A stretch of 38,932 nt of DNA from positions 1-38,932 of IMG/VR virus record IMGVR_UViG_3300050030_000136; one strand, 5' to 3'. Position numbers and translations under genes: made by a program. Each line of letters begins with the position of its first letter. Within the stretch, counting starts at the first letter, position 1. Shown here one piece after another: positions 3,342-35,218 of this stretch. The notes under the pieces are model-generated. The model had not been told where the DNA came from. It saw nothing but the letters and a program-made list of their open reading frames with translations, and did no database searches. The stretch comes from a virus.

Positions 3342-3758
3342 ATGCCGTCTATAAAATTTACAGTCTATGGTGAGCCTACAGCATTGAAAAGACATAATAT
3401 GTATAGGCATAAAGGGAAACTAATTTCTGTAAATCCCTCATCTAAACAAGAAGATGATTTTCTTGCTTTGGCTCACCAAAATAGACCTGATATGCCAATA
3501 AATACAAGTACTGCCATATCATTAAGTTTCTTTTTTGGTAGACCGAAATATCATTATGGAACAGGCAAAAACTCGTTAATATTGAAAGAAAAAGCACCAA
3601 AAGCTCATACATCAAGACCAGATATAGATAACTTAATAAAATTTGTATTCGACTCACTTAATGGCGTATTTTGGTCTGATGACAGTATTATATCAGATAT
3701 AATATCGCATAAATTTTATGACGTAAGGCCAAGAACTGAAATAGAAATAATTTACTAA
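3342..3758 (+). CDS. rusA: RusA-family Holliday junction resolvase
   Basis: 138 aa, close to the usual RusA length of about 120. The RusA hallmark is clear at residues 91-114: SRPDIDNLIKFVFDSLNG then VFWSDDS. D94, D96 and D113/D114 match the catalytic aspartates of the family, and K100 also fits. The N-terminus IKFTVYGEPTALKR is the typical first strand. RusA dimers cut four-way junctions, resolving recombination or replication intermediates before packaging. It completes a recombination set with the annealing-like protein and the nuclease upstream. The ATG directly follows the previous TAA, with AGAGG as ribosome site. Confidence 0.9.
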   Translation: MPSIKFTVYGEPTALKRHNMYRHKGKLISVNPSSKQEDDFLALAHQNRPDMPINTSTAISLSFFFGRPKYHYGTGKNSLILKEKAPKAHTSRPDIDNLIKFVFDSLNGVFWSDDSIISDIISHKFYDVRPRTEIEIIY

Positions 3759-3841
3759 AAATAGAGTTTCTCCTTTAACACCTGCCCAAGCTTGCATCCC
3801 TTGGGTGGGGCGCAATAATATCATATATCTTTAAGGAGATA
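3757..3841 (+). promoter_or_regulatory. Structured leader A with sequestered ribosome site
   Basis: A 10-bp hairpin (arms 3781-3790 and 3800-3809, two G-T pairs) lies between TCTCCTT at 3769-3775 and AAGGAGA at 3833-3839. Those two stretches are perfect complements, so they can pair and hide the strong Shine-Dalgarno of the dockerin gene. The leader shares AAAAATAGAGTTTC (3757-3770) with 38122-38135, and TCTCCTTTAA plus CCTTGGGTGG with 35261-35286. The structure suggests conditional translation; no ligand class is recognised. Confidence 0.5.
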
Positions 3842-3844
3842 GCT

Positions 3845-5296
3845 ATGAAAAAGTTACTTTTTTCGTTACTGTTCACCTTGATTATGTCCTGCTCTGGTTA
3901 TTGTGGTATTGTTACTATTAATGGGCTTCCATTAGTAATAAAGGAAAATTTCATCTACTTTGATAATTACTACTCTTATTGGGGGAAACAACAACCACAG
4001 ATATTTGCAGCCTATATCGTTTTCTCTGCTGATGTAACTTACGGTATTGGGGAATATAAACAGTCAGCAAAAGGTAAAAAAGTAAAGTTTAATCTTAATG
4101 GCAGCATAGGTGGACAAGGGAAATACTATCAACATTATTTAACAGGCAGCCAAAACATATTTGGAACTTATGGTTTTGTAGTTCCATATCCAGCAAACGG
4201 ATGTACTGATGAAACTGGACATATAGAATGGAAAGTTGGAATAGGTGATAAAACATTTGGATATGTAAAATACCATCCAAATGGCCCATTTCCAGATGAA
4301 TTAGTACGTTTACCAAAAGAACCACATTCACAGTTTTCTTTAGTAAATTGTTCTGTTTCTGCTTGGCAAGGAATAAAAACAGTAGAAACTCCAGCCTACT
4401 TTGCATTTGTTGTAAGTGCGCCTCACTATTCTGAAGACCCAATATTACAACAAAAGTTTGGAAATATAAGCTTTGCAGATGCTTCAATGGCAGAATTAGG
4501 AGAACCTGACCCTGCTCTTATAGATGCAATAACTGGATTAGGTAAAATGTCAATTAAAACCACGTCAGAATCTAACTCTATACAAGAAACATTAGACCCA
4601 AATTATAAGTTTCCAGATATTCAAATTTCGCCACCAATACAATATGGTTGGAGTATTTATGGTGATGGATTCTATACTTTATTAGATGGAAATATGTTTG
4701 GAAAATCAAATAGATTTTTCGCTCATAATTTACAAGAAATATCAGACCCTAATGAGGTAAAAAGTTACTTATCTTTAAATTCGCCATACTGTTATGTGAA
4801 AACTATAAATGTACCAAATGCTATTAATTATAACTCAAAAGGTTATACGGCATTTGCTTGTGCAGTAAATAACAATAATGAGATATATAACTCATTTCCT
4901 ATATTTATGACAGTATTGAAAAAAACGAGTAATACTGTAACATTTATATCGGACTATTTTTATGCGGTTGATTATACTTCAACTGGTGTACGTTATGATA
5001 AACACGGAAATAAGTTTGTATGTGTTCCAGCTATAGAAGATGGTAATATAGTTATAAACCCAATATCTCCAAGTAATTATGGCGATTTTAACAATGATAG
5101 AAAGGTCAATCTAATTGATTTTGCCAAATTTTCAGAGTATTTTGGAAAGACAACACAAGACTCAGATTTTGACAGTATGTATGATTTTAATAATAATGGC
5201 AAAGTCGATTTGTCAGATTTCGTACGTTTTCAAATGAATTGGCTAAATGATAAGACTTTTGGTATATTTATCAAAGAAATAGTAATTAATTATTGA
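3845..5296 (+). CDS. Secreted protein with C-terminal type I dockerin
   Basis: 483 aa. Residues 1-20 form a signal peptide (MKKLLFSLLFTLIMSCSGYC), with an imperfect lipobox at C16. Residues 20-415 are a Tyr-, Asn- and Phe-rich beta-type region I cannot assign. Residues 418-470 hold two dockerin repeats with EF-hand-like calcium loops, GDFNNDRKVNLIDFAKFSEY and YDFNNNGKVDLSDFVRFQMN. The F-x-x-F-x-x-x-W/F ending is typical of Phycisphaerae dockerins rather than clostridial ones (L-K-R-Y). Dockerins bind cohesins on surface or secreted scaffolds. The protein is probably exported by the infected cell as a host-modifying factor, a lysis component or a surface-exclusion factor. It follows the structured leader and precedes lysis-like genes. 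Confidence 0.75.
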   Translation: MKKLLFSLLFTLIMSCSGYCGIVTINGLPLVIKENFIYFDNYYSYWGKQQPQIFAAYIVFSADVTYGIGEYKQSAKGKKVKFNLNGSIGGQGKYYQHYLTGSQNIFGTYGFVVPYPANGCTDETGHIEWKVGIGDKTFGYVKYHPNGPFPDELVRLPKEPHSQFSLVNCSVSAWQGIKTVETPAYFAFVVSAPHYSEDPILQQKFGNISFADASMAELGEPDPALIDAITGLGKMSIKTTSESNSIQETLDPNYKFPDIQISPPIQYGWSIYGDGFYTLLDGNMFGKSNRFFAHNLQEISDPNEVKSYLSLNSPYCYVKTINVPNAINYNSKGYTAFACAVNNNNEIYNSFPIFMTVLKKTSNTVTFISDYFYAVDYTSTGVRYDKHGNKFVCVPAIEDGNIVINPISPSNYGDFNNDRKVNLIDFAKFSEYFGKTTQDSDFDSMYDFNNNGKVDLSDFVRFQMNWLNDKTFGIFIKEIVINY

Positions 5297-5307: not shown

Positions 5308-5808
5308 ATGAATTGGAAATATGTTGCAGGTGGACTTGCTGTATTTTGCCTTATCGCTGTAATCGGTTGTGCAACGATGATTGATATGTATCCTGCCAAA
5401 ATATCAAAGGACTTGGCTAAGTACACTGGACACGACCCTAACAACCTTAATTGGCCTGTTGGAACAATGGGTACACTTCGTGATTGGTTAGCGGAAGCCA
5501 GCTTGAAACATCAGTTAAATCAAGCTGATATTGAGTATTATGCCAAAAAGGACAATTTAACCTATGAGGCAGTAGCTAAATCTGGTGCAGCATACTTAGA
5601 AATTGCACAAAAGGAAACAAGTTCTTTGTTTGGTCAAAATGGCCTATTGTGGCCTATATTGGCATTGACATTAGGCGGTGGTGGTATATCGGCAGCAACA
5701 GCATTAATAACAAGCAAGATAAATGCCAGTACAAACTATACTCCTGCAGAAGTTAAGACCATAGCAGATGAATCTGCATCAACAGGGAAAGCACCTGCTG
5801 TAATATAA
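5308..5808 (+). CDS. Putative lipoprotein with internal membrane segment
   Basis: 166 aa. The N-terminus has a lipoprotein signal ending in the lipobox AVIGC (Cys about residue 21). The middle (about 50-100) is helical and charged. A second hydrophobic, Gly-rich segment, LLWPILALTLGGGGISAATA, lies near residues 115-140. The start was set at the ATG at 5308 because GAAAGGA precedes it; an in-frame TTG at 5293 lacks a ribosome site and overlaps the previous gene. Position beside small membrane proteins suggests a lysis (spanin- or holin-like) or surface-exclusion role. No family is recognised with confidence. Confidence 0.65.
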   Translation: MNWKYVAGGLAVFCLIAVIGCATMIDMYPAKISKDLAKYTGHDPNNLNWPVGTMGTLRDWLAEASLKHQLNQADIEYYAKKDNLTYEAVAKSGAAYLEIAQKETSSLFGQNGLLWPILALTLGGGGISAATALITSKINASTNYTPAEVKTIADESASTGKAPAVI

Positions 5809-5840
5809 TAATTTAAAATATAACTAAATTGTGGTGAAAT

Positions 5841-6260
5841 ATGAGTATCACATACCAAGAATTGCATAATTGGAAATATAGACTTGTTAAACCTGTTACA
5901 TATCAATCTAAAATCTTAGGCATAAGTTATGATTGCTTATATTATAGCATAACTCTTGCTGGTTTAGTAACTGGTAAGGTAGGTTATGCTTGGGATGGTG
6001 CTACTGGCGCGCCAGACTCTAAAGATATTTTTGAGGGGGCTGCAATTCACGATATTCTTTGTCAAATGATGAGAGAGGGCATATTAAGCAGAGAAATCTA
6101 TTTTGATATAGCAAATAAAGCATTGGTTGAAATATGTCTATCTAAAAAAATGCCACAATGGTACGCTAATTTAGTCTATTGGATGGTAACTAATTTGGGT
6201 AAAAAAAGTACATTTCCTTCTAAATATACACCAAATAAGATTGTAATAATTGAACCTTGA
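5841..6260 (+). CDS. DUF1353-like phage protein
   Basis: 139 aa. The region GYAWDGATGAPDSKD followed by EGAAIHDILCQ fits the DUF1353 pattern (G-x-x-x-D-x-A-S/T, then H-D near a helix). DUF1353 genes often lie in phage lysis or tail regions, and a peptidase-like role has been proposed but not shown to my knowledge. H70 and D71 of the HD pair are candidate functional residues. It is preceded by GTGGTG and followed by small membrane proteins. No signal peptide is seen. Confidence 0.65.
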   Translation: MSITYQELHNWKYRLVKPVTYQSKILGISYDCLYYSITLAGLVTGKVGYAWDGATGAPDSKDIFEGAAIHDILCQMMREGILSREIYFDIANKALVEICLSKKMPQWYANLVYWMVTNLGKKSTFPSKYTPNKIVIIEP

Positions 6261-6286
6261 AAAATAGTGCAAATAGGACAGTTAAT

Positions 6287-6532
6287 ATGATATCTCCTGA
6301 ACAAACTGAAATAGTCAAAAAGCTTTGTGAAGAAAATGATATACCTTATTCAGAAGACTTAGACGAAAAGGTAAAAAAGTGGTCTGCGGATTATATGAGA
6401 CAGTGGAGAAAAGACCAATACATAAGCGAAAGGCTAAAAATGCTTGAACATAAACGCCCCAAATTTTGGTTTTGGTATGTAGTATGTATATTATTTTTAT
6501 TACTTTATGGAGTATACTATGCCTGTAGATAA
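6287..6532 (+). CDS. Small membrane protein with C-terminal anchor
   Basis: 81 aa. A charged helical domain (residues 1-60) ends in one membrane helix, FWFWYVVCILFLLLYGVYYA, and two final residues. This is a tail-anchored, N-in topology. The ATG at 6287 follows AGGA with a 9-base gap and is preferred over a TTG at 6257 that overlaps the previous stop. Its place near the end of the block with other membrane proteins fits a lysis accessory role, but no family is recognised. Confidence 0.6.
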   Translation: MISPEQTEIVKKLCEENDIPYSEDLDEKVKKWSADYMRQWRKDQYISERLKMLEHKRPKFWFWYVVCILFLLLYGVYYACR

Positions 6533-6662
6533 ATCAGTGCCAGATGAAAACTTAGAACCAAGTGAATATATACCAACTGGTAATGCCTGTATTTATTGTG
6601 GTCATAAAAAATGTGTTTGTGATGATAGATATGAAGATTATGTAGAAAAACAGCGCAAATAG
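6519..6662 (+). CDS. Small Cys-rich protein, 47 aa
   Basis: The gene overlaps the end of the previous one by 14 bases, and GGAG lies seven bases before its ATG. Residues 23-35 hold CIYCGHKKCVC, a CxxC plus CxC arrangement that could bind one zinc ion. The rest is acidic. It is the last gene of the plus block before the terminator. Function unknown. Confidence 0.55.
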   Translation: MPVDKSVPDENLEPSEYIPTGNACIYCGHKKCVCDDRYEDYVEKQRK

Positions 6663-6726
6663 GATGGTCAATAAAATAGCCTGAATATACTTTTTATTTT
6701 CCTACTTGTTTGCTCTTATTAATAAT

Positions 6727-6761
6727 ATGGCCATACCTGAAAAGGCGTGGCCATACTTTTT
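6727..6761. terminator. Terminator between convergent operons
   Basis: ATGGCCATACC-TGAAAA-GGCGTGGCCAT forms an 11-position stem with one mismatch and one G-T pair, followed by ACTTTTT on the plus strand. It lies in the only gap between the converging blocks (6,663-6,782). The plus-strand reading is the better terminator. On the minus strand the hairpin is followed by ATTATTAATAAG, a weaker tract. Confidence 0.75.
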
Positions 6762-6782
6762 AGGAGGATATGAAGATGAAGA

Positions 6783-7040
6783 TTATCTACCTGTATAATA
6801 TCTAAAAATAAAATCACCTATAACAAGCAATACTCCTATATACATAGGTATATATGTAAGAAATTTTGAAGTTTCTACTTGTTTATGCTCATTAAAGTCT
6901 TTTATAAATTCTTCGTGTCTATTGAGTTTGCTTTGAAAAGACTCACTTCCGTTATCTATAAATATCCTATCAAGTCTGTCATTTATTTTCTGAAATTCAT
7001 CTCTACATATCCTATCATACTGTTGTTGCTCATAGTCCAT
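6783..7040 (-). CDS. Small coiled-coil membrane protein, holin/XhlA-like
   Basis: 85 aa. An N-terminal coiled coil (with KINDRLDRIF and KLNRHEEFIKDFNEH) is followed by a membrane helix, TYIPMYIGVLLVIGDFIFRY, and a short basic end. This layout matches XhlA-type haemolysin/holin accessory proteins. Start: ATG at 7040 after GAAAGG, in preference to a TTG 15 bases upstream. It is the last gene of the late block, a common place for lysis genes. The role is inferred from topology only. Confidence 0.6.
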   Translation of the reverse strand: MDYEQQQYDRICRDEFQKINDRLDRIFIDNGSESFQSKLNRHEEFIKDFNEHKQVETSKFLTYIPMYIGVLLVIGDFIFRYYTGR

Positions 7041-7051
7041 TTTTAAGCCTT

Positions 7052-8329
7052 TCAAATAAATCCAAGCTGCTGTAGTTTATTTATTTCGTCTTCTATGACA
7101 GTTATAGCGTCAGTTCGATATTGAATATTAGGTATTTTTAACTTATCAATAAGACCATAAATATCTTTTTCAAGACCCTTTAAGGTTTTATTTTTACCAG
7201 TTACTTCACATATAATTCCCAAATGACCGCTTGAAACCAGTTTATTATCTTCTAAATTAACGTCTAATAACCATATATGTTCAAAACTATCTATTCCTCT
7301 TATAGGTATATTTTGATTAAATTTATTAGTAACATTAAAGTCTTTCGGTTCAAAAGGGTAAGGAGGTATAGATATTCTTATAGAACCTAACCAATCAGAA
7401 GTAGGATTTATTTTTGGTTTTTTGCCTTCACATAAACTTTTGAAAAACTCGCCTACTTTAATATCAAGACCTTCTAAAAAAGCATATATAGCTGAATATC
7501 CTATGCGTGGAGTAAACTCAAGAAAATACACATCTTTTTTGTCAGTAACCATAGTATTTACATCAAGAGGGCCATTATATTTATCAATCTTTAACGCAGA
7601 TAGCATTTTTTTGATTGTTTCTTTATATATTAAAGGCTCTTTACCATTCCAAAATTTAACTATAGATGAAGAACAACCAGTTTGCTGACCTAATTCATCG
7701 GTCATAAAACGCTTTGTTTCCCAAGTAGAGTTAAGCGTTTCCATAATTGGATGACCATCAACAAACCAAAGTTCTGTACTTATTTCATATCCTATAACTT
7801 TTTCCTGCAAAAGAAAGTCTACTTTCCCTTTCCAACGACCTTCAAAATAATCGAGCATTTCTATAAGGTCTTGAGTATCTTCAGAGTCAGAGTATGTAAA
7901 TCCATTATCATCTCCCATAGGTTTAAAAACCCATAGTTTCTTGGAAGAAACTAAAAACTTTCTTGCGTCTTCAAAAGACTTAAATTCGTGATGTTCAAGT
8001 ATTTCAAGACCGCTTTTTTCAGCTAATACTATGCCAAATTCTCTATCTTCTTCCATTTTATCTTGAAGTAAACCTGCACCATAACAATTGCATCTCTTTG
8101 ATAATTTTTCGTATATTTCTCCCATTGAACTCATATCGAATATAACATTAGAGTCTTTAGACATATTTTCTATGATACTATTTGTTTCTTTTAATATACC
8201 TTTATAAATACCACGATATTTAGGGTCTTTAATCCAAAAACAAACGTCATTTCCTTCATTTGCTATGCGAAATGCTATACCAAGACCATCTCCATATTTA
8301 GAAATAAGTTTAACATTGTTAGTCGTCAT
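7052..8329 (-). CDS. ATP-grasp ligase, PurD-like
   Basis: 425 aa. The N-terminus (VKLISKYGDGLGIAFRIANE) resembles the nucleotide-fold start of PurD-type ligases. The middle carries ATP-grasp features: LWVFKPMGDDNGF as the ATP-binding Lys strand, then LLQEKVIGYEIS, and FLEFTPRIGYSAIYAF, which replaces the metal-binding ExNPRxGxxE of PurD. ATP-grasp enzymes join a carboxylate to an amine through an acyl phosphate. The substrate is unknown. The chosen ATG at 8329 lies inside the last codons of the upstream tiny gene; in-frame starts further upstream (GTG at 8368) seem less likely because homology begins at VKLISKYG. It sits among late structural genes, unusual for purine synthesis. Confidence 0.75.
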   Translation of the reverse strand: MTTNNVKLISKYGDGLGIAFRIANEGNDVCFWIKDPKYRGIYKGILKETNSIIENMSKDSNVIFDMSSMGEIYEKLSKRCNCYGAGLLQDKMEEDREFGIVLAEKSGLEILEHHEFKSFEDARKFLVSSKKLWVFKPMGDDNGFTYSDSEDTQDLIEMLDYFEGRWKGKVDFLLQEKVIGYEISTELWFVDGHPIMETLNSTWETKRFMTDELGQQTGCSSSIVKFWNGKEPLIYKETIKKMLSALKIDKYNGPLDVNTMVTDKKDVYFLEFTPRIGYSAIYAFLEGLDIKVGEFFKSLCEGKKPKINPTSDWLGSIRISIPPYPFEPKDFNVTNKFNQNIPIRGIDSFEHIWLLDVNLEDNKLVSSGHLGIICEVTGKNKTLKGLEKDIYGLIDKLKIPNIQYRTDAITVIEDEINKLQQLGFI

Positions 8330-8399
8330 CGTATCTGTTCCCATCAGGGTCATCGTCAATATCTTCACCCGAATCTATTACGAAATCTGGAGTTATCAT
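8319..8399 (-). CDS. Tiny acidic peptide, 26 aa
   Basis: The ATG overlaps the TGA of the 1,429-residue protein (ATGA junction), and the stop lies 11 bases inside the ATP-grasp gene start, so the three frames are chained. The peptide is extremely acidic (10 Asp and 1 Glu in 26), ending DDDPDGNRYDDD. It may be a real peptide, a coupling device for ATP-grasp translation, or a chance frame. The tight overlap on both sides is the only support. Confidence 0.4.
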   Translation of the reverse strand: MITPDFVIDSGEDIDDDPDGNRYDDD

Positions 8400-11300
8400 T
8401 TTACAAGTTTATTGGCGGATTTAGCTAAAGCTATTCTTTGCTTTTCTAATTTGGCTATTTTCTCAGATTTTTGGCTTCCGTTAATTATGGTTGATTTTGT
8501 AATAATATCTATTCTTTTATTAATTTCACCTAATTGCTTAGAAATAGAATTTAATGTACTTGCCATAGCAAATTTTGGATTTTCTTTTGAAAGTTTTACA
8601 GCATCTTTAATTCTTCCATCTTTAATCATTTTATTATAAGTAGTCTGTATAGAAGTGTACTCTTTAAGATTTTTATAGAATTTATTTATACTTTCTGCCT
8701 GACCTGTTTCCATAGGACTTTTTAGAGTTGTACCATATAATAAAGGATAACGAGTAATATCAGTAGGTTTTATAGGTACTTTTTGGCCTGATTCTTTTTT
8801 AATAGAATTTATCAGGTAATCACCAACTCCTGTTATATATCTTTCTGAACCTCCCAAATACCCCTGTGCAAGATTTTCTATTTTTGCAGGTGAATAATTT
8901 ATTATTTTACCAATTTGCTTTGCAGTTTCTGAAGTATACTTTGTAGATTGTTCAGACGGTTCTAAGTTTTCTATTCCTTGAGGTAATATAGATTGTTGTC
9001 TAAAGAAGTTATAGTTAGTAGCATTTTCTATAAATGGTTTAACTGCTGTAGCAAGCATACCAGAAGAAGGGTCTCCAGAAGTAGGTAGTACTGAATCAAA
9101 GGTGGATTTGGCTAATCCATCAAATGCAGATTTATCTTTTGTATCAAGATATTCCATAAATCTTTCTGGTACAGAACTGAAAACTTGACCATAAAGAAAT
9201 GGTTTAGGTACTCTTGCGTAAACCTTTGTTCCTGGAACTTTTATACACCAAAATAGGTCTTTTTGCCATCTTGGTATTTCTTTGAAATCTGGGTCATTTC
9301 TATTAATCATATATAAAATTACAGAAGGAACTGTTAATGCGGCAATTCCTTTTACAGAAGTTCCAACTGGGTCTTTAATAACAGTTCTTATAGTCTTTTC
9401 AGTGCCTTGAACTCCAGCGTTAAAAAATGCCATAAGTTGATTTATGTCTTTTGTCCTTGAACCTCTAACACCAAAATCTACTGTGGCCTCACGACTTTCA
9501 AAACCAGATTCTATATCAGACAATCCTTTTTCTTTTGCTGTTTTGAAAACCGCTACTCTTGTTGCCTGTTCCATTAACTGACTTAAATCTTGTGCAGTAT
9601 GAATAATATTCAGTTTTTCTACAAGTCCTTTTTGACTCATTAATTCTTTATATGCAGCTTTTAATTTTGGTCTTGATAATTCAACAAAACCACTATATGC
9701 ACCTCCAGAACGTAACCAATCATAATAAACATCACTTTTATTCATAATATCTGCTATTGCTTTTACACTATCGTGTAAAGGAGTAAATCCAAACTTGGCT
9801 TGCATCATAGCACCCATTTGGTCTCTTGTTGGATTTCTTATAATAAATTCTGGAGTTATAGTAGCAGCAGTTCTTAATAGTCTTGCTGGTGCAGATAAAA
9901 TCTTAACAAGTAGACTTGATGATGTTTCATTCATTCCTGTCATAGCATCTTGTAGATTTTTAGGTACTTTATAATATTGTGGTTTACCATTCACAAAGAC
10001 TTCTATGCTATCTTTTGGTTTAAACGATGAAGGTCTAAAAATTGTACTTTCTATTGGTACTTCTTGAGTAATGACTCTTTGTATTTCACGAACAATTTGC
10101 TTAACAGTCTTTTCGACAGTTTCGCCAGTAGGTGTTTTTCCACCACTTGCTTGCGATTCAATCTTTCTTATATAATTTCCAGCTTCTGATTCGGTCATAC
10201 CTCTATGGACAAGTGCATCGACTACTACTTTTTTAAGTTTATCCATAGGCGTTTTAGCGTCTACAGTTTGACCATCTTTTGTTCTTTTTGTAGTTTCAGT
10301 TGCTTCTTGTACTACTTGAGATACGTTCTTCCTAAAGGTTCTGACTTCGGTAGATATTTCTTTAGGGTCTACCTTTATAGGACGCATTTTTATATGTTGT
10401 CTAACTATTTCATCTGGAAACATTTTCTTTAATTTTATTACATCTCTTGCAACCGTGTTTCTTTCAGAAGTATCCATAATCCTATGGACGTTTTTAATTA
10501 CACTTTCAATAACGTCTTGTTTTGGACGTAAAGAACCCTTAATCTTTCTAATAAATGAACGTGCCTCTGAAAATGGTTTATTAGATTTTGGAGTTCCAGA
10601 TATACCTTCTGCTATATCCATAATCCTATCAAATGGAATATAGTTTGGATTTTCTTTAAGGATTCGAGCATATTGAGCTTTAGACATATTGCCACTGTCT
10701 ACAAGTAAATGTAAAACTCGCTTTTGGAAATCATAGATTCTTATAGCAGTTTTGTCGAAAATAGACATATTTTCGCCATACTTTTTGTCAAGATTGTCCA
10801 TAATTTTTTGAGCTTCGGCAACCTGTTCTTTGGTTACTATATTTTCTTCACTACCTTCGTACTTTGGTTTTTGCAAGTCCTCAATAGTTCTTCGTGATAT
10901 AAGATAATCTTTTAAGTCTTGTGGTGAAGCAGTCTTTCCAAAGAAAAACTCTCTGGTTTTTTGTGCAAAGGTAGGTTTTTTACCAATATCAGATACACTT
11001 TTTTCAAAATCTTCAATTATGGGTTTTAGACCTTCGCCAGTAATTTCTATATTACCTTCTTTGTTTATCTTGTATGTTTTATCTTCTAATACCGATTCTG
11101 CCTTTTTACCAGTACCTAAATAACTACGAGAGCGCAACTTAGGGTCTTCTCCAGGTTTTATAGTAAGACCAAGTTTCTTAGCCTTTTCTCCTGCATTTTC
11201 AATAGAAGCAAAACGATTAATAACAGATTGATAAGCATTTTCTGCCGCTTCGCCTATTTTTGTACCTTTAAGAGTAATCTTTTTAGACTCTTGTGGTGGT

Positions 11301-12685
11301 TGTCCTTCAATAGGAACATCTGGTGGTTTTGGAGGTTCTTGTGGAGGTTTAGGTGGTTTTACATCAGCACCTAAATCTTCACTATGCAAATTGTCATTTG
11401 GTTTTGGTATTTGACCTGCCTCATAAGCTACTTTGCCACCTTCATTTCTATTTACAAAACGACCTTCGTTTGTAACGAATCCTTCTTCAAAGCCTTGTGG
11501 TGCATCTTCTTGTTTTAAACCAAGTTTATCATACGCTTCTTGATGATATTGACCTTCTATTATTTCTCCGTCAGGAGTTTTTATAGCAGCAGATTTTATA
11601 GTTTCACCTTGTTTTGTAGGTGGACTTATTTGATTAAGGTCTTTCTTTGGTGGTAAATCAGTTTCCATTTGCTCTTTTTGAGCCATTTGTTCATATATAA
11701 ATTTAGGTGGTTTTTTACTTTCTAAATCTTTAATAGCTTTATCGGCCCAATCTTCGCCTTTATATGGCGTTAAAACTTCAATATCTTCTGGTTTAAGTTT
11801 ACCTTCTTCAGCAGCTTTTTGGATTATAGGTTTACGGATAAGATTTTCAGTTTGGTATTTCATTTGTGCTGCAGCAAGTTCGGCCTTGCCAGTAGGCGCG
11901 CCGCTTAAATCAACCTTGCTTAAATCGCGTTTAGGCATTGATTGCGTTTCGGGGGTAACATTGGTCGGGGCAACAGGTTTTGACGCATCTGGGTCGATTG
12001 TAGACGGTTTTTGACCCTTGCCAGCGTAAGGCGTTAATATCGCGCCCATAGCCGTTTGTGCGGCAACGTCTTTTAAAGGTACACCTTCAACTGCTGCAGT
12101 ACCACCCATAGTTGCAGCGCCAGCACCACGTCTTAAATATGGATTTTTAATAGACCCTATCATTTTTAGCATTTTACCCAAAATTAATCTTTGTGCCGCG
12201 CCTTTTGCAGCACCCATCAACATAGATTTTCCTTCACGTTTTGCTTGCGCAGCACCTTGCATACCTCCATAAATAGTACCTGCTTCCCATTGTGCAAGTC
12301 CTACTGGCAAAGAACCTATTACTTGACCAACAAAATTATCAACTGAATTTGCACCTGATTTTGCGGCTTCTTTATCCCAATAATCAGCATTTACTGTAAG
12401 ATGTTTTGCGATATTATTAATTAATGAATCGTCTTTTAATTCTTTACTACCAGTATATTGACGTACTACATTAGCCATATCTTGAATATCAGTCATAAAC
12501 GATGCGGCAGATTTTTCAGCACCGCTTATTGCACCTAATTCAGCGTGTAATGGTACATTTAACTTTTCTATAAAAGAAGGTTTTCTATCTGGTTGAGTTT
12601 CTAGCTCAAATCCTTGTGGAACATTTGTTTGTGGTTGTTGTTCTATTTCAAAACCAGTAGGTAAATTTATTTGGTTACTTGCCAC
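8396..12685 (-). CDS. Giant polyvalent virion protein with LPD38-like domain
   Basis: 1,429 aa, the largest gene. The N-terminus has two short repeats (PTGFEIEQQPQ, PQGFELETQPD). Residues 130-220 are Gly/Ala-rich and may insert in membranes. The middle is Pro- and Lys-rich linker, with FVTNEGRFVNRNEGGK, a motif shared by many phage proteins. About residues 900-1320 match the large polyvalent-protein-associated domain LPD38 (PEFIIRNPTRDQMGA, VDFGVRGSRTKDINQL, AFFNAGVQGTEKTIR). Such proteins are carried in the head and ejected with DNA in podoviruses. GTG start, overlapping the previous gene by 19 bases. Confidence 0.75.
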   Translation of the reverse strand: MASNQINLPTGFEIEQQPQTNVPQGFELETQPDRKPSFIEKLNVPLHAELGAISGAEKSAASFMTDIQDMANVVRQYTGSKELKDDSLINNIAKHLTVNADYWDKEAAKSGANSVDNFVGQVIGSLPVGLAQWEAGTIYGGMQGAAQAKREGKSMLMGAAKGAAQRLILGKMLKMIGSIKNPYLRRGAGAATMGGTAAVEGVPLKDVAAQTAMGAILTPYAGKGQKPSTIDPDASKPVAPTNVTPETQSMPKRDLSKVDLSGAPTGKAELAAAQMKYQTENLIRKPIIQKAAEEGKLKPEDIEVLTPYKGEDWADKAIKDLESKKPPKFIYEQMAQKEQMETDLPPKKDLNQISPPTKQGETIKSAAIKTPDGEIIEGQYHQEAYDKLGLKQEDAPQGFEEGFVTNEGRFVNRNEGGKVAYEAGQIPKPNDNLHSEDLGADVKPPKPPQEPPKPPDVPIEGQPPQESKKITLKGTKIGEAAENAYQSVINRFASIENAGEKAKKLGLTIKPGEDPKLRSRSYLGTGKKAESVLEDKTYKINKEGNIEITGEGLKPIIEDFEKSVSDIGKKPTFAQKTREFFFGKTASPQDLKDYLISRRTIEDLQKPKYEGSEENIVTKEQVAEAQKIMDNLDKKYGENMSIFDKTAIRIYDFQKRVLHLLVDSGNMSKAQYARILKENPNYIPFDRIMDIAEGISGTPKSNKPFSEARSFIRKIKGSLRPKQDVIESVIKNVHRIMDTSERNTVARDVIKLKKMFPDEIVRQHIKMRPIKVDPKEISTEVRTFRKNVSQVVQEATETTKRTKDGQTVDAKTPMDKLKKVVVDALVHRGMTESEAGNYIRKIESQASGGKTPTGETVEKTVKQIVREIQRVITQEVPIESTIFRPSSFKPKDSIEVFVNGKPQYYKVPKNLQDAMTGMNETSSSLLVKILSAPARLLRTAATITPEFIIRNPTRDQMGAMMQAKFGFTPLHDSVKAIADIMNKSDVYYDWLRSGGAYSGFVELSRPKLKAAYKELMSQKGLVEKLNIIHTAQDLSQLMEQATRVAVFKTAKEKGLSDIESGFESREATVDFGVRGSRTKDINQLMAFFNAGVQGTEKTIRTVIKDPVGTSVKGIAALTVPSVILYMINRNDPDFKEIPRWQKDLFWCIKVPGTKVYARVPKPFLYGQVFSSVPERFMEYLDTKDKSAFDGLAKSTFDSVLPTSGDPSSGMLATAVKPFIENATNYNFFRQQSILPQGIENLEPSEQSTKYTSETAKQIGKIINYSPAKIENLAQGYLGGSERYITGVGDYLINSIKKESGQKVPIKPTDITRYPLLYGTTLKSPMETGQAESINKFYKNLKEYTSIQTTYNKMIKDGRIKDAVKLSKENPKFAMASTLNSISKQLGEINKRIDIITKSTIINGSQKSEKIAKLEKQRIALAKSANKLVK

Positions 12686-13625: not shown

Positions 13626-14912
13626 TTAATTAATTATAACTATTTTCCCTTTATATTTTCTCAATAGAGGGAAATTATTTGTCCATTGATACCAAATTGG
13701 TGTAGAAAAATCCCATACTATATCTCCACCATCATAAATATTATGTGTCTTATCAAAGTAAGCTGACTTTAATGTTTCATTATAAGTTACTGGTTCATTA
13801 GACCCAAGTGCAACCGAACATTGACCTGTCCACCAACCACAATTAACGATTGAGCCACTGCCAATGTTTCCAACTAATCCAGCAGCATAATTCCCTAAAA
13901 CAACTCCAGTAGCATAACAGTTTGTTATTGTAGAGCCAGGTGCTTCACCAATAAGACCGCCTTTCCAGCTTATGTCCATTCTTCCTTGAACCTGTCCAGT
14001 AGCATAAGAATTTGTTACAGTGCCATATCGAAAGTAACCAACCAATCCACCAGTATATAAAAGGTCTCCAACACTTCCATCAACATTGCCAGTGGAATAA
14101 CAATTTTCAATAACCATACTATCGCCATAACCAAGCAATCCACCAAGAGTAACGTATTCGCCACCACCTTTTGTATATACATTACCTGTAGAGTAACAAA
14201 TTCGTAACGCTGAACCTCCACCTGACTGTCCTATAAGTCCCCCAACCATATCATTTCCATAAACATCTCCTGTGGCATAGCAATTAGTTATTCCATCATT
14301 TAATTCTTGCCCTATAAGTCCACCAACATAAGTACTTCCCGAAACCTCACCCGTAGCGTAACAATATGACATTGATTCGTCATTTAATCCTACCAGCCCA
14401 CCAACACTACTTATTCCTATAACCGTAGCTGAACTATGAAGAAGTGTATAATTGCCATCAGAACCAATCCACCCCACCAGACCGCCAACACAGTAGCGAC
14501 CTGTTACGCTTCCAGAAGAAACATCGTATGCCAAATATGTAGTATCACTATATCCTATCAATGCACCTACATAATCACGACCTTTTATATTAGCGTTTGT
14601 AATATTTACATTCTGTATATTAGTATCTCCTGCACTTAAATTGCCAGCACCAAATAATCCTACATAATCTGTTGTAGAACGATTTATAAATAGATTTGAA
14701 ATTGTATGTCCTTGTCCGTTAAAAGTTCCAAAAGGTTCAGAACCATCTCCACCAAACCTTACATCAATATTTCCTATTGGTATAAATCCTGCCCCACTAT
14801 TCCAACCACTTGTGGCAGAGGCATCTATATCATTCATTAAAATACATTCATCTGCTAAGTGGTCTGGTGTTATATCCTGTAATTCAGCAAGAGTATATAT
14901 TTCGTAAGCCAT
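13626..14912 (-). CDS. GLUG-repeat beta-helix protein, putative receptor-binding fibre
   Basis: 428 aa. An N-terminal cap (MAYEIYTLAELQDITPDHLA, then GTFNGQGHTISNLFI) leads into about ten GLUG-type repeats of 25-40 residues, such as CYATGEVSGSTYVGGLIGQ and CYATGDVYGNDMVGGLIGQ. The end has a W/Y-rich closing segment (VWDFSTPIWYQWTNNFPLL). GLUG repeats form right-handed beta-helices in surface adhesins and are very common in Planctomycetes. A virion fibre or host-surface-binding role is likely, given its place among tail genes. It starts one base after the previous stop (TAATATG). Confidence 0.75.
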   Translation of the reverse strand: MAYEIYTLAELQDITPDHLADECILMNDIDASATSGWNSGAGFIPIGNIDVRFGGDGSEPFGTFNGQGHTISNLFINRSTTDYVGLFGAGNLSAGDTNIQNVNITNANIKGRDYVGALIGYSDTTYLAYDVSSGSVTGRYCVGGLVGWIGSDGNYTLLHSSATVIGISSVGGLVGLNDESMSYCYATGEVSGSTYVGGLIGQELNDGITNCYATGDVYGNDMVGGLIGQSGGGSALRICYSTGNVYTKGGGEYVTLGGLLGYGDSMVIENCYSTGNVDGSVGDLLYTGGLVGYFRYGTVTNSYATGQVQGRMDISWKGGLIGEAPGSTITNCYATGVVLGNYAAGLVGNIGSGSIVNCGWWTGQCSVALGSNEPVTYNETLKSAYFDKTHNIYDGGDIVWDFSTPIWYQWTNNFPLLRKYKGKIVIIN

Positions 14913-25531: not shown

Positions 25532-26020
25532 TTATGCCACCCTTTCTACAAGCGGAAAGTTAAGTCTTGCAAAGTCGCCAAAAAGCCACATAGCGTGTAT
25601 GTCGTAAGCATATGCGGCATCAATTTCATTTGTAAATTCACCTAAATTATATATTTTATAATCTTTATTTATTCTTACTCTCCATTTATTTCTTTTTTTA
25701 GAAAAATCTACTCCTTTATATTTTGATATTCCTTTAATCTTTATTCTATTTTGCTGATTTTCTGAATAATTACATAAACGGAGATTTTCTTTGCGATTAT
25801 CTAATCCATTACAGTTTATATGGTCTATTTGTTTCTTATCATTTTTAACCAATAATAACACTTCACGGTGCATTTTTATAGTAGAATGTTTCCCTAAATG
25901 CCTCCAAGCATACCAACAGTTTCTTAATTTGCTTGAATACCATTTATGTTTATTTAATCTATCAAAGTCCTCATCATCGACTAATGCAACTTTATTTTGA
26001 GTTAATTGTATTTCTTTCAC
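25532..26020 (-). CDS. Free-standing HNH-AP2 homing endonuclease
   Basis: 162 aa. HNH residues: H51 in KMHRE, D66-H67 in IDHIN and N75/N79 in LDNRKENL. The C-terminal domain (about 98-155: YKGVDFSKKRNKWRVRI, then YAYDIHAMWLFGDFARLNFP) is AP2/ERF-type DNA-binding. The pair is a known mobile phage endonuclease layout. Start is GTG at 26020, overlapping the portal TGA, with the strong GGGAGGTGA site inside portal. It likely entered between portal and the next gene and spreads itself by gene conversion. Confidence 0.9.
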   Translation of the reverse strand: MKEIQLTQNKVALVDDEDFDRLNKHKWYSSKLRNCWYAWRHLGKHSTIKMHREVLLLVKNDKKQIDHINCNGLDNRKENLRLCNYSENQQNRIKIKGISKYKGVDFSKKRNKWRVRINKDYKIYNLGEFTNEIDAAYAYDIHAMWLFGDFARLNFPLVERVA

Positions 26021-30615: not shown

Positions 30616-31350
30616 TTATACTCCTAAATAACTAAATAATTGTTCACCAGTTGAGTTTAATCTCATTTGGTCTGAATTCGATTCATTATATAATTGTTTC
30701 ACTTCATTTGCACTAAGGGCTTTATTATAAATGCGAACATCGTCAAGGAGACCAGTAAAAATGCCCGCACCACTTTCGGTATTTTCTTTTCCAATATATA
30801 AACTTTTTGGAATTGCAAAACTCGCATATTGGTCTAATGAATTTCCATCACTACTATTAACTAATATTCCATTTTTATACCAATAGAATTTAGAAGTAGT
30901 TGGCGATGTTTGCTCTGCAACACCGACAAAAAAATACCATTCGTTTAAGATATATTTCCCAAAATCATTACCTGTCGAACTAACACCCCCAGATATATGA
31001 GAGAGTCCAGTTTCTCTACCTGATGTGAGAGGGATAAAGATTAAGTCCATTTCATCTATACTATCTATGCCTAAAATAAATTGGGAATTTATAGCTCTAT
31101 CAGTTTTAAACCATCCGCTTATGGAAAAGCTATTTTGAAACGTGCTTTCAAATGTTTCTCCGGTATCTACATAATCCGTAGTGCCATTAAAATTCAACGC
31201 GCCGCCAATCTTTCCTGCAACGTGCATTAGGTTCGTATTCCTCTGTGCAGTTCCATTATAACCATTGCCGCTGGAATCTAATACCACTTTAGATGGAAGA
31301 CTATCGTCCATTTTCCAAAGTGCTACTAATGATTCTTGCATAGTTGGCAT
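30616..31350 (-). CDS. LamG/concanavalin-like domain protein
   Basis: 244 aa. The pattern ESLVALWKMDDS, DSSGNGYNGTAQ, GGALNFNGTTDYVDTGE, FSISGWFKTD, WYFFVGVAEQ and LLDDVRIYNKALSANEVKQLY is the classic LamG jelly roll that binds glycans and is very common in Planctomycetes. A ligand-binding role on the virion is likely. The ATG shares an A with the previous TAA; GGAG precedes it. Confidence 0.85.
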   Translation of the reverse strand: MPTMQESLVALWKMDDSLPSKVVLDSSGNGYNGTAQRNTNLMHVAGKIGGALNFNGTTDYVDTGETFESTFQNSFSISGWFKTDRAINSQFILGIDSIDEMDLIFIPLTSGRETGLSHISGGVSSTGNDFGKYILNEWYFFVGVAEQTSPTTSKFYWYKNGILVNSSDGNSLDQYASFAIPKSLYIGKENTESGAGIFTGLLDDVRIYNKALSANEVKQLYNESNSDQMRLNSTGEQLFSYLGV

Positions 31351-33455: not shown

Positions 33456-34277
33456 ATGAAAGAACAATTAATTACAGTATCAAAAACTCGTAGGGTTGCA
33501 GAAGCCACAATAACACCAGAAGTCGCCCAAGAATTACTCAATAGACAAAGTGATTTACAAAGGAAGGTAAACGCAATACATTTGGGCAGATTGACAAATG
33601 TTATGGCTAATGGCTCTTGGAAAGACCTAAATGGCGATTCGATAAAGTTTGATAAGGACGGATTTTTGATTGATGGACAGCATAGACTATTGGCAGTAAT
33701 AAATAGTAAAAAAACCATTAAAACCTATGTGGCATTGGGATTAGACAAAGATGATATATATTTTATAGACCTTTGGCATAAAACAAGAGGAACATCTGAT
33801 GTATTTAAGATGAAAGGAGTAGATAATTATTGCGTTATAGCTTCTGCTGCAGCAAGTCTATGGAGATATGACAATGGAAGTTTCGCAGATAAAGTTACAT
33901 ATCCTGACCCCGAAGAAACCTTTAAATATTTTATGCAAAATCAAGGATTAATTATTAGTGCAAAATACGGAGAAACAGTGAAGAAAATGATAGGAAAATC
34001 TTTAGCTACATTTTTGCATTATACATTTGCTCGAATTAACCAAAATCAAGCAAGTAGGTTTTTTGAGGATTGGTCTACTGGTGCTAATCTTAATGCTGAT
34101 AGTCCTATACTACAACTTAGAAATAGACTTATGTATAATAAAAGAGAAGATGTTCAAATGAAACTTGACCCTGTAAATCAAGTTGCTCTTGTTATTTTAG
34201 CGTGGAACGCTATAAGGGAAAATAAAAAATATACAAAGTTAAGATGGACTGGAAATGCTTTCCCAGAAGCGATATGA
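33456..34277 (+). CDS. ParB-like (DGQHR) phage protein
   Basis: 273 aa. Residues 57-85 contain DLNGDSIKFDKDGFLIDGQH then RLLAV, the D-G-x-H-R motif of ParB/sulfiredoxin-fold phage proteins. The family may act on nucleotides or DNA, but no reaction is established for this branch. The C-terminal half is helical (FLHYTFARINQNQASRFF). Its TGA overlaps the radical SAM ATG (ATGA), showing tight coupling. AAAGGA precedes the ATG. Confidence 0.7.
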   Translation: MKEQLITVSKTRRVAEATITPEVAQELLNRQSDLQRKVNAIHLGRLTNVMANGSWKDLNGDSIKFDKDGFLIDGQHRLLAVINSKKTIKTYVALGLDKDDIYFIDLWHKTRGTSDVFKMKGVDNYCVIASAAASLWRYDNGSFADKVTYPDPEETFKYFMQNQGLIISAKYGETVKKMIGKSLATFLHYTFARINQNQASRFFEDWSTGANLNADSPILQLRNRLMYNKREDVQMKLDPVNQVALVILAWNAIRENKKYTKLRWTGNAFPEAI

Positions 34278-35218
34278 AGATACTTATTATCGACATAGAT
34301 TCAACAATTCCAAACGTAGCCTTGCATAAGGTCGCAAAATACTATGGCGACCAAGGCCACGAAGTCATTTGGAACAATCCGCTTTATAAACATATAGCTG
34401 ATAAAATATATGTAAGTTGTATCTTTAGTTATAATAAGCATTTATGTAATGAATGGGTTGGACACTCGGCAACTTCGATAGGGGGAAGTGGTTTCGATTT
34501 AAGCATAGCACTTCCCCCTGAAATCGAACAAATTAAGCCGAAAATTAATATAGGTTTTACTACAAGGGGTTGTATTAGAAATTGTCATTTTTGTATAGTC
34601 CCTAAAAAAGAAGGAAAAATACGAGTTGAAGGCGATATATTAGACTTATGGGATGGCAAGTCAAAAACTATTATGATTTTGGATAATAACATACTTGCCT
34701 TGCCTGAGCATTTTTTAAAGATTTGTAAACAGTTAAAAGATAACAACTTACGAGTAGATTTTAACCAAGGGTTAGATTTTAGATTATTGACTGATGATAT
34801 TTGTAAAGAGCTTTTTAGTTTAAAGCATTGTCAGGAAATCCGTTTTGCGTTTGATGATATTGCATATAAGGCTCGTGTTCTACTCGCCTTAGAAATGTTA
34901 AAACGAAATGGATTAAAGTCGTGGCAAACAAGATGGTATGTATATGTTGGAGTCAAAGACACACTTGAAACTGTTTACGAAAGATGTAAGCTTCTTTGTC
35001 AGGAAAAGCAGCTTATTTATATGATGCGAGATAGAGATAAATCTGTTCAGGAAAATAAACAGTTTATAGCTCTTGCCAAGTGGACAAATTGGACACCGTT
35101 TTTTAAATACGACTTTTATCAGGTGTTAGAAAAAAGCGAGCATTTTAAAGATTATAGAAAAGATTTTGGTCTAAAAGATAAACCAGTGGAACAGTATACA
35201 CAAAAGTTTGATTTTTGA
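34274..35218 (+). CDS. Radical SAM enzyme, B12-binding-like N-terminus
   Basis: 314 aa. The 4Fe-4S cluster motif TTRGCIRNCHFCIVPKKEG gives C100-x3-C104-x2-C107. It is preceded by IGGSGFDLSIALPPEIE and an N-terminal MKILIIDIDSTIPNVALHKV part that resembles the Rossmann fold of B12-binding radical SAM proteins, but without the D-x-H-x-x-G cobalamin motif. LDNNILALPEHF and VDFNQGLDFRLLT are typical of this phage-frequent family. The substrate is unknown; modification of a nucleic acid, nucleotide or protein is possible. The ATG overlaps the ParB-like stop. An in-frame ATG 30 bases earlier is not preferred. Confidence 0.85.
   Translation: MKILIIDIDSTIPNVALHKVAKYYGDQGHEVIWNNPLYKHIADKIYVSCIFSYNKHLCNEWVGHSATSIGGSGFDLSIALPPEIEQIKPKINIGFTTRGCIRNCHFCIVPKKEGKIRVEGDILDLWDGKSKTIMILDNNILALPEHFLKICKQLKDNNLRVDFNQGLDFRLLTDDICKELFSLKHCQEIRFAFDDIAYKARVLLALEMLKRNGLKSWQTRWYVYVGVKDTLETVYERCKLLCQEKQLIYMMRDRDKSVQENKQFIALAKWTNWTPFFKYDFYQVLEKSEHFKDYRKDFGLKDKPVEQYTQKFDF

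Follow-up and report, generated by a model that had tools for sequence, protein, structure and literature searches.

A dockerin on an exported-type protein of an uncultured podovirus-like phage, and its possible use at the host surface

Few functions are known for cohesin–dockerin pairs outside cellulosomes, and a phage gene whose product carries at its C-terminus a dockerin, a calcium-binding plug by which proteins are normally fixed to extracellular scaffolds, raises the question of what a virus might gain from such a module. The gene lies in a virus record of 38,932 bases, the whole of which was analysed (hereafter the window) and which represents a podovirus-like phage. In the preferred reading, to which a probability of roughly 40% is assigned, it codes for an accessory exported protein that would be tethered by the dockerin to a cohesin on the host surface and would change the envelope of the infected cell. 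If phages do reuse dockerins to dress the cells they infect, this would be the first viral role for dockerins and a new route of surface takeover, and it would offer a way to find the hosts and the cohesin partners of uncultured phages. The features of the locus are as follows (coordinates of the window, with the basis of each call in brackets).

3342–3758, + strand: RusA Holliday-junction resolvase, upstream of the dockerin gene (Pfam)
3833–3839, + strand: Shine-Dalgarno-like AAGGAGA, a few bases before the ATG start (direct sequence reading)
3845–5296, + strand: gene of the exported-type dockerin protein (P0001), 483 aa (ORF list, Pfam, codon-position GC)
3845–3904, + strand: signal-peptide-like N-terminus, residues 1–20 (simple rule)
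3905–5059, + strand: orphan cargo, residues 21–405 (without relative in the searches)
5078–5224, + strand: dockerin domain with two calcium-loop repeats, residues 412–460 (PF00404 above cut-off, predicted fold, alignment A2)
5084–5119, + strand: calcium loop 1, DFNNDRKVNLID (alignment A2)
5183–5244, + strand: calcium loop 2 with helix, DFNNNGKVDLSDFVRFQMNWL, of the NWL sub-type (pattern search)
5308–5808, + strand: lipoprotein-like membrane protein, adjoining the dockerin gene (ORF list)
5841–6260, + strand: DUF1353-like/phrog_1158 gene, common to the related contig L032 (phrog_1158 match; Pfam DUF1353 weak)

The codon-position GC of the gene (0.40/0.35/0.20) is similar to that of the remaining phage genes. 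The signal peptide proposed earlier from the letters of the DNA holds by the home-made simple rule applied throughout this work, which the N-terminus of the 483-aa protein, MKKLLFSLLFTLIMSCSGYCG, satisfies with its hydrophobic core. The same segment contains a near-lipobox, IMSC (IMS/C), the strict lipobox being absent, and judging by this motif the protein is possibly a lipoprotein. The cargo region of ca. 385 residues has no detectable relative among the phages, viral contigs, genome contigs, and 40 relative records searched, and no homologue of the whole protein was found in these four sets. Outside the dockerin no Pfam or NCBIfam cut-off was passed, i.e., there is no match to a glycoside hydrolase, a CBM, or another catalytic domain. 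A search of a defence-system library gave no relevant match, and the full-length protein, modelled with AlphaFold from the single sequence without an alignment, reached a mean pLDDT of 32; the beta-rich character proposed earlier for residues 20–415 is putative.

The two dockerin repeats named by the sequence-only reading are borne out. Dockerin_1 (PF00404) matches residues 412–460 with 36.3 bits (E 6.4e-9, cut-off 22.9), and ligand positions 1, 3, 5, 9, and 12 are intact in both loops, DFNNDRKVNLID and DFNNNGKVDLSD (alignment A2). The DNA pattern of the second repeat has a single match in the window and none in 100 shuffles. That reading was to fall if the repeats did not fold; the AlphaFold model of residues 401–477, built with an alignment of 27 dockerin-like sequences, has a core pLDDT of 95–98, and its top Foldseek matches are all dockerins, type II first. 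The type II X-dockerin of CipA from Clostridium thermocellum ranks first (TMq 0.69, rmsd 1.4 Å), and another of these matches is a type II dockerin from Bacteroides cellulosolvens. The likeness to type II is modest (Foldseek E 2e-3), and the best PDB matches by sequence, two type II dockerins aligned free of gaps over 49 columns, are weak (E 0.055 and 0.094). Type II dockerins anchor cellulosome scaffolds at the cell surface. The phage dockerin would presumably bind both calcium and a cohesin. The dockerin region alone gave no tblastn match in phages or plasmids, and the protein is not a member of NCBIfam NF041540, the GC-type dockerin domain-anchored proteins (14.5 bits, below the cut-off of 29).

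Carriage by a phage, also claimed before, is confirmed by terminase, portal, and LPD38 genes in the virus record. The strand of the dockerin gene bears a Cas4-like nuclease (weak match), RusA, the dockerin gene itself, the lipoprotein-like gene, and the phrog_1158 (DUF1353-like) gene, while the opposite one bears the terminase (phrog_5989), a portal candidate (phrog_449), the large LPD38 protein, and a podophage GP4 gp80-like fibre protein; all virion genes recognised in the window are on the latter. With an upstream TTG at 5293 as its start, the lipoprotein-like ORF shares bases with the dockerin stop codon. Strand and position are what suggests early expression of the dockerin gene.

Of the 168 related viral contigs found with a terminase alignment built from the window and L032, 80 were retained; the five closest relatives have 59–66% of terminase residues in common. 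Most of the close relatives (G026, G028, and G030) are without any dockerin, and its function is therefore dispensable. Another one, G027, codes for a protein of 211 aa that has a signal-peptide-like start and, at the C-terminus, the loop WDLNEDGIVDLLDYALLLEAYPDGVPTWILASLMENWL; its gene is on the strand opposite to the G027 structural genes. This protein is unrelated to that of the window and belongs to no Pfam family, and the call of its dockerin loop rests on sequence, since the Pfam dockerin score of 13.7 bits is below the cut-off. L032, a more distant relative with the DUF1353-like gene, terminase, and portal in common with the window, codes for a protein combining a signal peptide, a single dockerin repeat, and LamG. 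The cargo is different in each of the three phages, so that their common element is export together with the dockerin.

Beyond these relatives, a loose dockerin-loop pattern has at least 120 matches in the viral collection, and many of those listed are single loops in non-exported proteins, e.g., of the KKIDLNKNGKIDGEDLAKLRA type; signal-peptide-like starts are found in 23 of the 88 listed generic dockerin-like loop proteins, a frequency close to that of neighbouring ORFs (27 of 119). The strict "...NWL" sub-type, matched by the window and chosen as a pattern after the window sequence had been seen, was found in another 13 viral stretches, on which there are 14 dockerin ORFs. Each of these has a signal-peptide-like start, against 27 of the 119 neighbouring ORFs (Fisher p ~1e-8, or 1e-6 if 10 distinct proteins are counted, the 14 including the near-copies L066/L132/L134 and L130/L136). 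Some contigs may be proviral or host-like, and L228 lies in a 548-kb record. LamG domains are recurrent in the exported-type phage dockerin proteins, and a signal peptide, a paired dockerin, and, by eye, a LamG-like region are seen in L013. The dockerin protein, presented by the sequence-only reading as a one-off oddity, thus has counterparts, as exported-type dockerin proteins recur in uncultured phages.

Two further groups were noted in the same collection. The short KKIDLNKNGKIDGEDLAKLRA motif, a single calcium-loop-like repeat, occurs in many different viral-contig proteins without signal peptides (L044, L047, L065, L075, and others). Proteins of L052 (7188–7916), L018 (665–1996), L080 (3595–4377), and L060 consist of a signal peptide, a beta-looking region, and a C-terminal pair of dockerin repeats with NNW or SNWG at the end; their N-termini look cohesin-like by eye, but Pfam Cohesin gave no match, and this reading was rejected.

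The mechanism proposed for the window protein is that an accessory gene on the replication (early-type) strand would yield a product exported by Sec, possibly as a lipoprotein, whose C-terminal dockerin, folded by calcium, would plug into a cohesin outside the infected host. The orphan cargo would thereby be fixed to the cell surface or within a scaffold outside the cell, where it would most likely benefit the phage by altering the envelope of the infected cell. The likeliest single task would be masking or alteration of a receptor, i.e., superinfection exclusion, itself rather unlikely when taken alone. The small lipoprotein Llp of phage T5 is exported early and blocks the receptor (PMC9586334). 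The probable export and the proposed action at the host envelope are what the window protein has in common with the Llp-type superinfection-exclusion lipoproteins; it is much larger, shows no homology to them, and would have a dockerin in place of direct receptor plugging. Tethering of a phage factor to the host surface, put forward earlier, is a reasonable suggestion, and it is strengthened by the similar exported-type dockerin proteins encoded in many other phage contigs. Since several other, mostly unrelated, uncultured phages have similar dockerin plugs on exported-type proteins, docking sites of the host may serve to change the surface of the infected cell. It is a more doubtful proposition that phages of bacteria decorated with cohesins and dockerins repeatedly gained dockerin-tagged exported proteins, host docking being a universal socket for interchangeable phage cargo; the proteins of the window, L217, and L032 would be examples of this strategy, as would those of NWL type in the 13 further stretches.

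The chief rival, though an unlikely one, is that the dockerin is a calcium-stabilised C-terminal module taken along with a secreted protein of the host, having no cohesin partner, and that the cargo acts alone outside the membrane. It is consistent with the finding that Pfam Cohesin matches neither the phage nor any relative searched and with the wholly different cargo of the window, G027, and L032, while the single or degenerate repeats in several phage copies suggest that the docking constraint is loose. In the window protein, however, both loops and their helices are intact in the sequence and in the predicted fold, and retention of the same module with unrelated cargo argues that the module itself is functional.

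It is improbable that the protein helps in lysis or envelope disruption together with the adjoining lipoprotein-like and small membrane proteins (5308–7055). The products of these neighbours are indeed membrane or lipoprotein-like, and no endolysin was recognised among the window ORFs scanned with Pfam or PHROGs, but the neighbours themselves have only a putative part in lysis, no peptidoglycan-active domain was found in the dockerin protein (Pfam, NCBIfam), and a close relative keeps a similar membrane gene without the dockerin gene. The chances are equally slim for a virion-attached adhesin whose dockerin would grip host surface cohesins at adsorption. This would agree with the location of exported-type dockerin genes in other phages, often within virion (head/tail) blocks and often with LamG: in L066 and L113 the gene adjoins Neck1 (phrog_27) or is close to it, in L136 it precedes a tail-tip-like gene (phrog_1101), and the L131 contig also bears terminase and portal. 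A Sec signal is nevertheless at odds with cytoplasmic assembly, and the window gene is on the strand opposite to all the recognised virion genes. Recent host DNA or an assembly artefact without a phage role, which would explain the absence of a homologue from the 40 relative records, is very improbable given the phage-like base composition (GC3 0.20), the tight placement between phage genes with a strong ribosome site, and an analogous gene in a relative phage (G027).

The preferred reading, a dockerin-tethered protein acting on the envelope of the infected cell, calls for a host with surface cohesins, and here a member of Planctomycetota is our guess. Hints of such a host, we assume, are the NWL sub-type and the accompanying LamG and GLUG proteins. 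For Planctomycetes, non-cellulosomal cohesin/dockerin systems have been proposed under the name "planctosome" (PMC6461901). The best dockerin matches in genome contigs, in a search that hinges on exact 8-residue words, included members of Patescibacteria; a host from this phylum, to which the L004 Microgenomates genome belongs, is disfavoured by the NWL-type pattern being found in 0 of its 287 genomes.

Among known systems, the cellulosome dockerins (PF00404; type II of CipA and of Bacteroides (Pseudobacteroides) cellulosolvens) resemble the phage protein in the paired calcium loops, the predicted fold, and the spacing of the repeats, but the phage protein is encoded by a virus and comes without cellulase, CBM, or scaffoldin. 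The planctosome of freshwater Planctomycetes likewise comprises exported non-cellulosomal dockerin proteins with proposed docking on surface cohesins (PMC6461901); it is, however, a cellular peptidase system, and the phage dockerin protein has no peptidase domain. The NF041540 proteins, too, are of the exported kind and have the dockerin at the C-terminus. Gene 40 of Vibrio phage VvAW1 was noted in passing for its Blastp likeness to dockerin type I (PMC3558961), whereas neither the dockerin of the window nor its whole protein has a tblastn match in the phage collection. Apart from this remark no study of exported phage dockerins was found in open-access papers, and the recurrence of this known domain on exported phage proteins appears to be undescribed.

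Several other genes of the window deserve a record. A 428-aa protein with GLUG repeats (13626–14912, − strand; PF07581, 86.9 bits) is encoded among the virion genes and is possibly a tail fibre or an adhesin. A LamG (concanavalin-like) protein encoded near the terminase genes (30616–31350, − strand) has no dockerin; the LamG protein near the terminase of L032 has both a dockerin repeat and a signal peptide. Pfam and PHROGs recognised no endolysin among the window ORFs scanned, and this phage group may have a new lysis enzyme. The LPD38 protein (1429 aa; 8396–12685, − strand) has relatives among the large proteins of Pelagibacter, Bacillus, and Vibrio phages, and beside its gene lies that of a 438-aa protein (7052–8368, − strand) with a weak GARS_C match, perhaps ATP-grasp-like; a protein of similar size is encoded beside the giant gene of G026. 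An HNH/AP2 homing-endonuclease-like gene (25532–26020, − strand) adjoins the portal gene, and genes similar to it are found at other places in the G027 and G028 genomes. Finally, an ORF with a weak, below cut-off match to radical SAM proteins (34244–35218, + strand) overlaps with its start the end of the upstream ORF (33456–34277).
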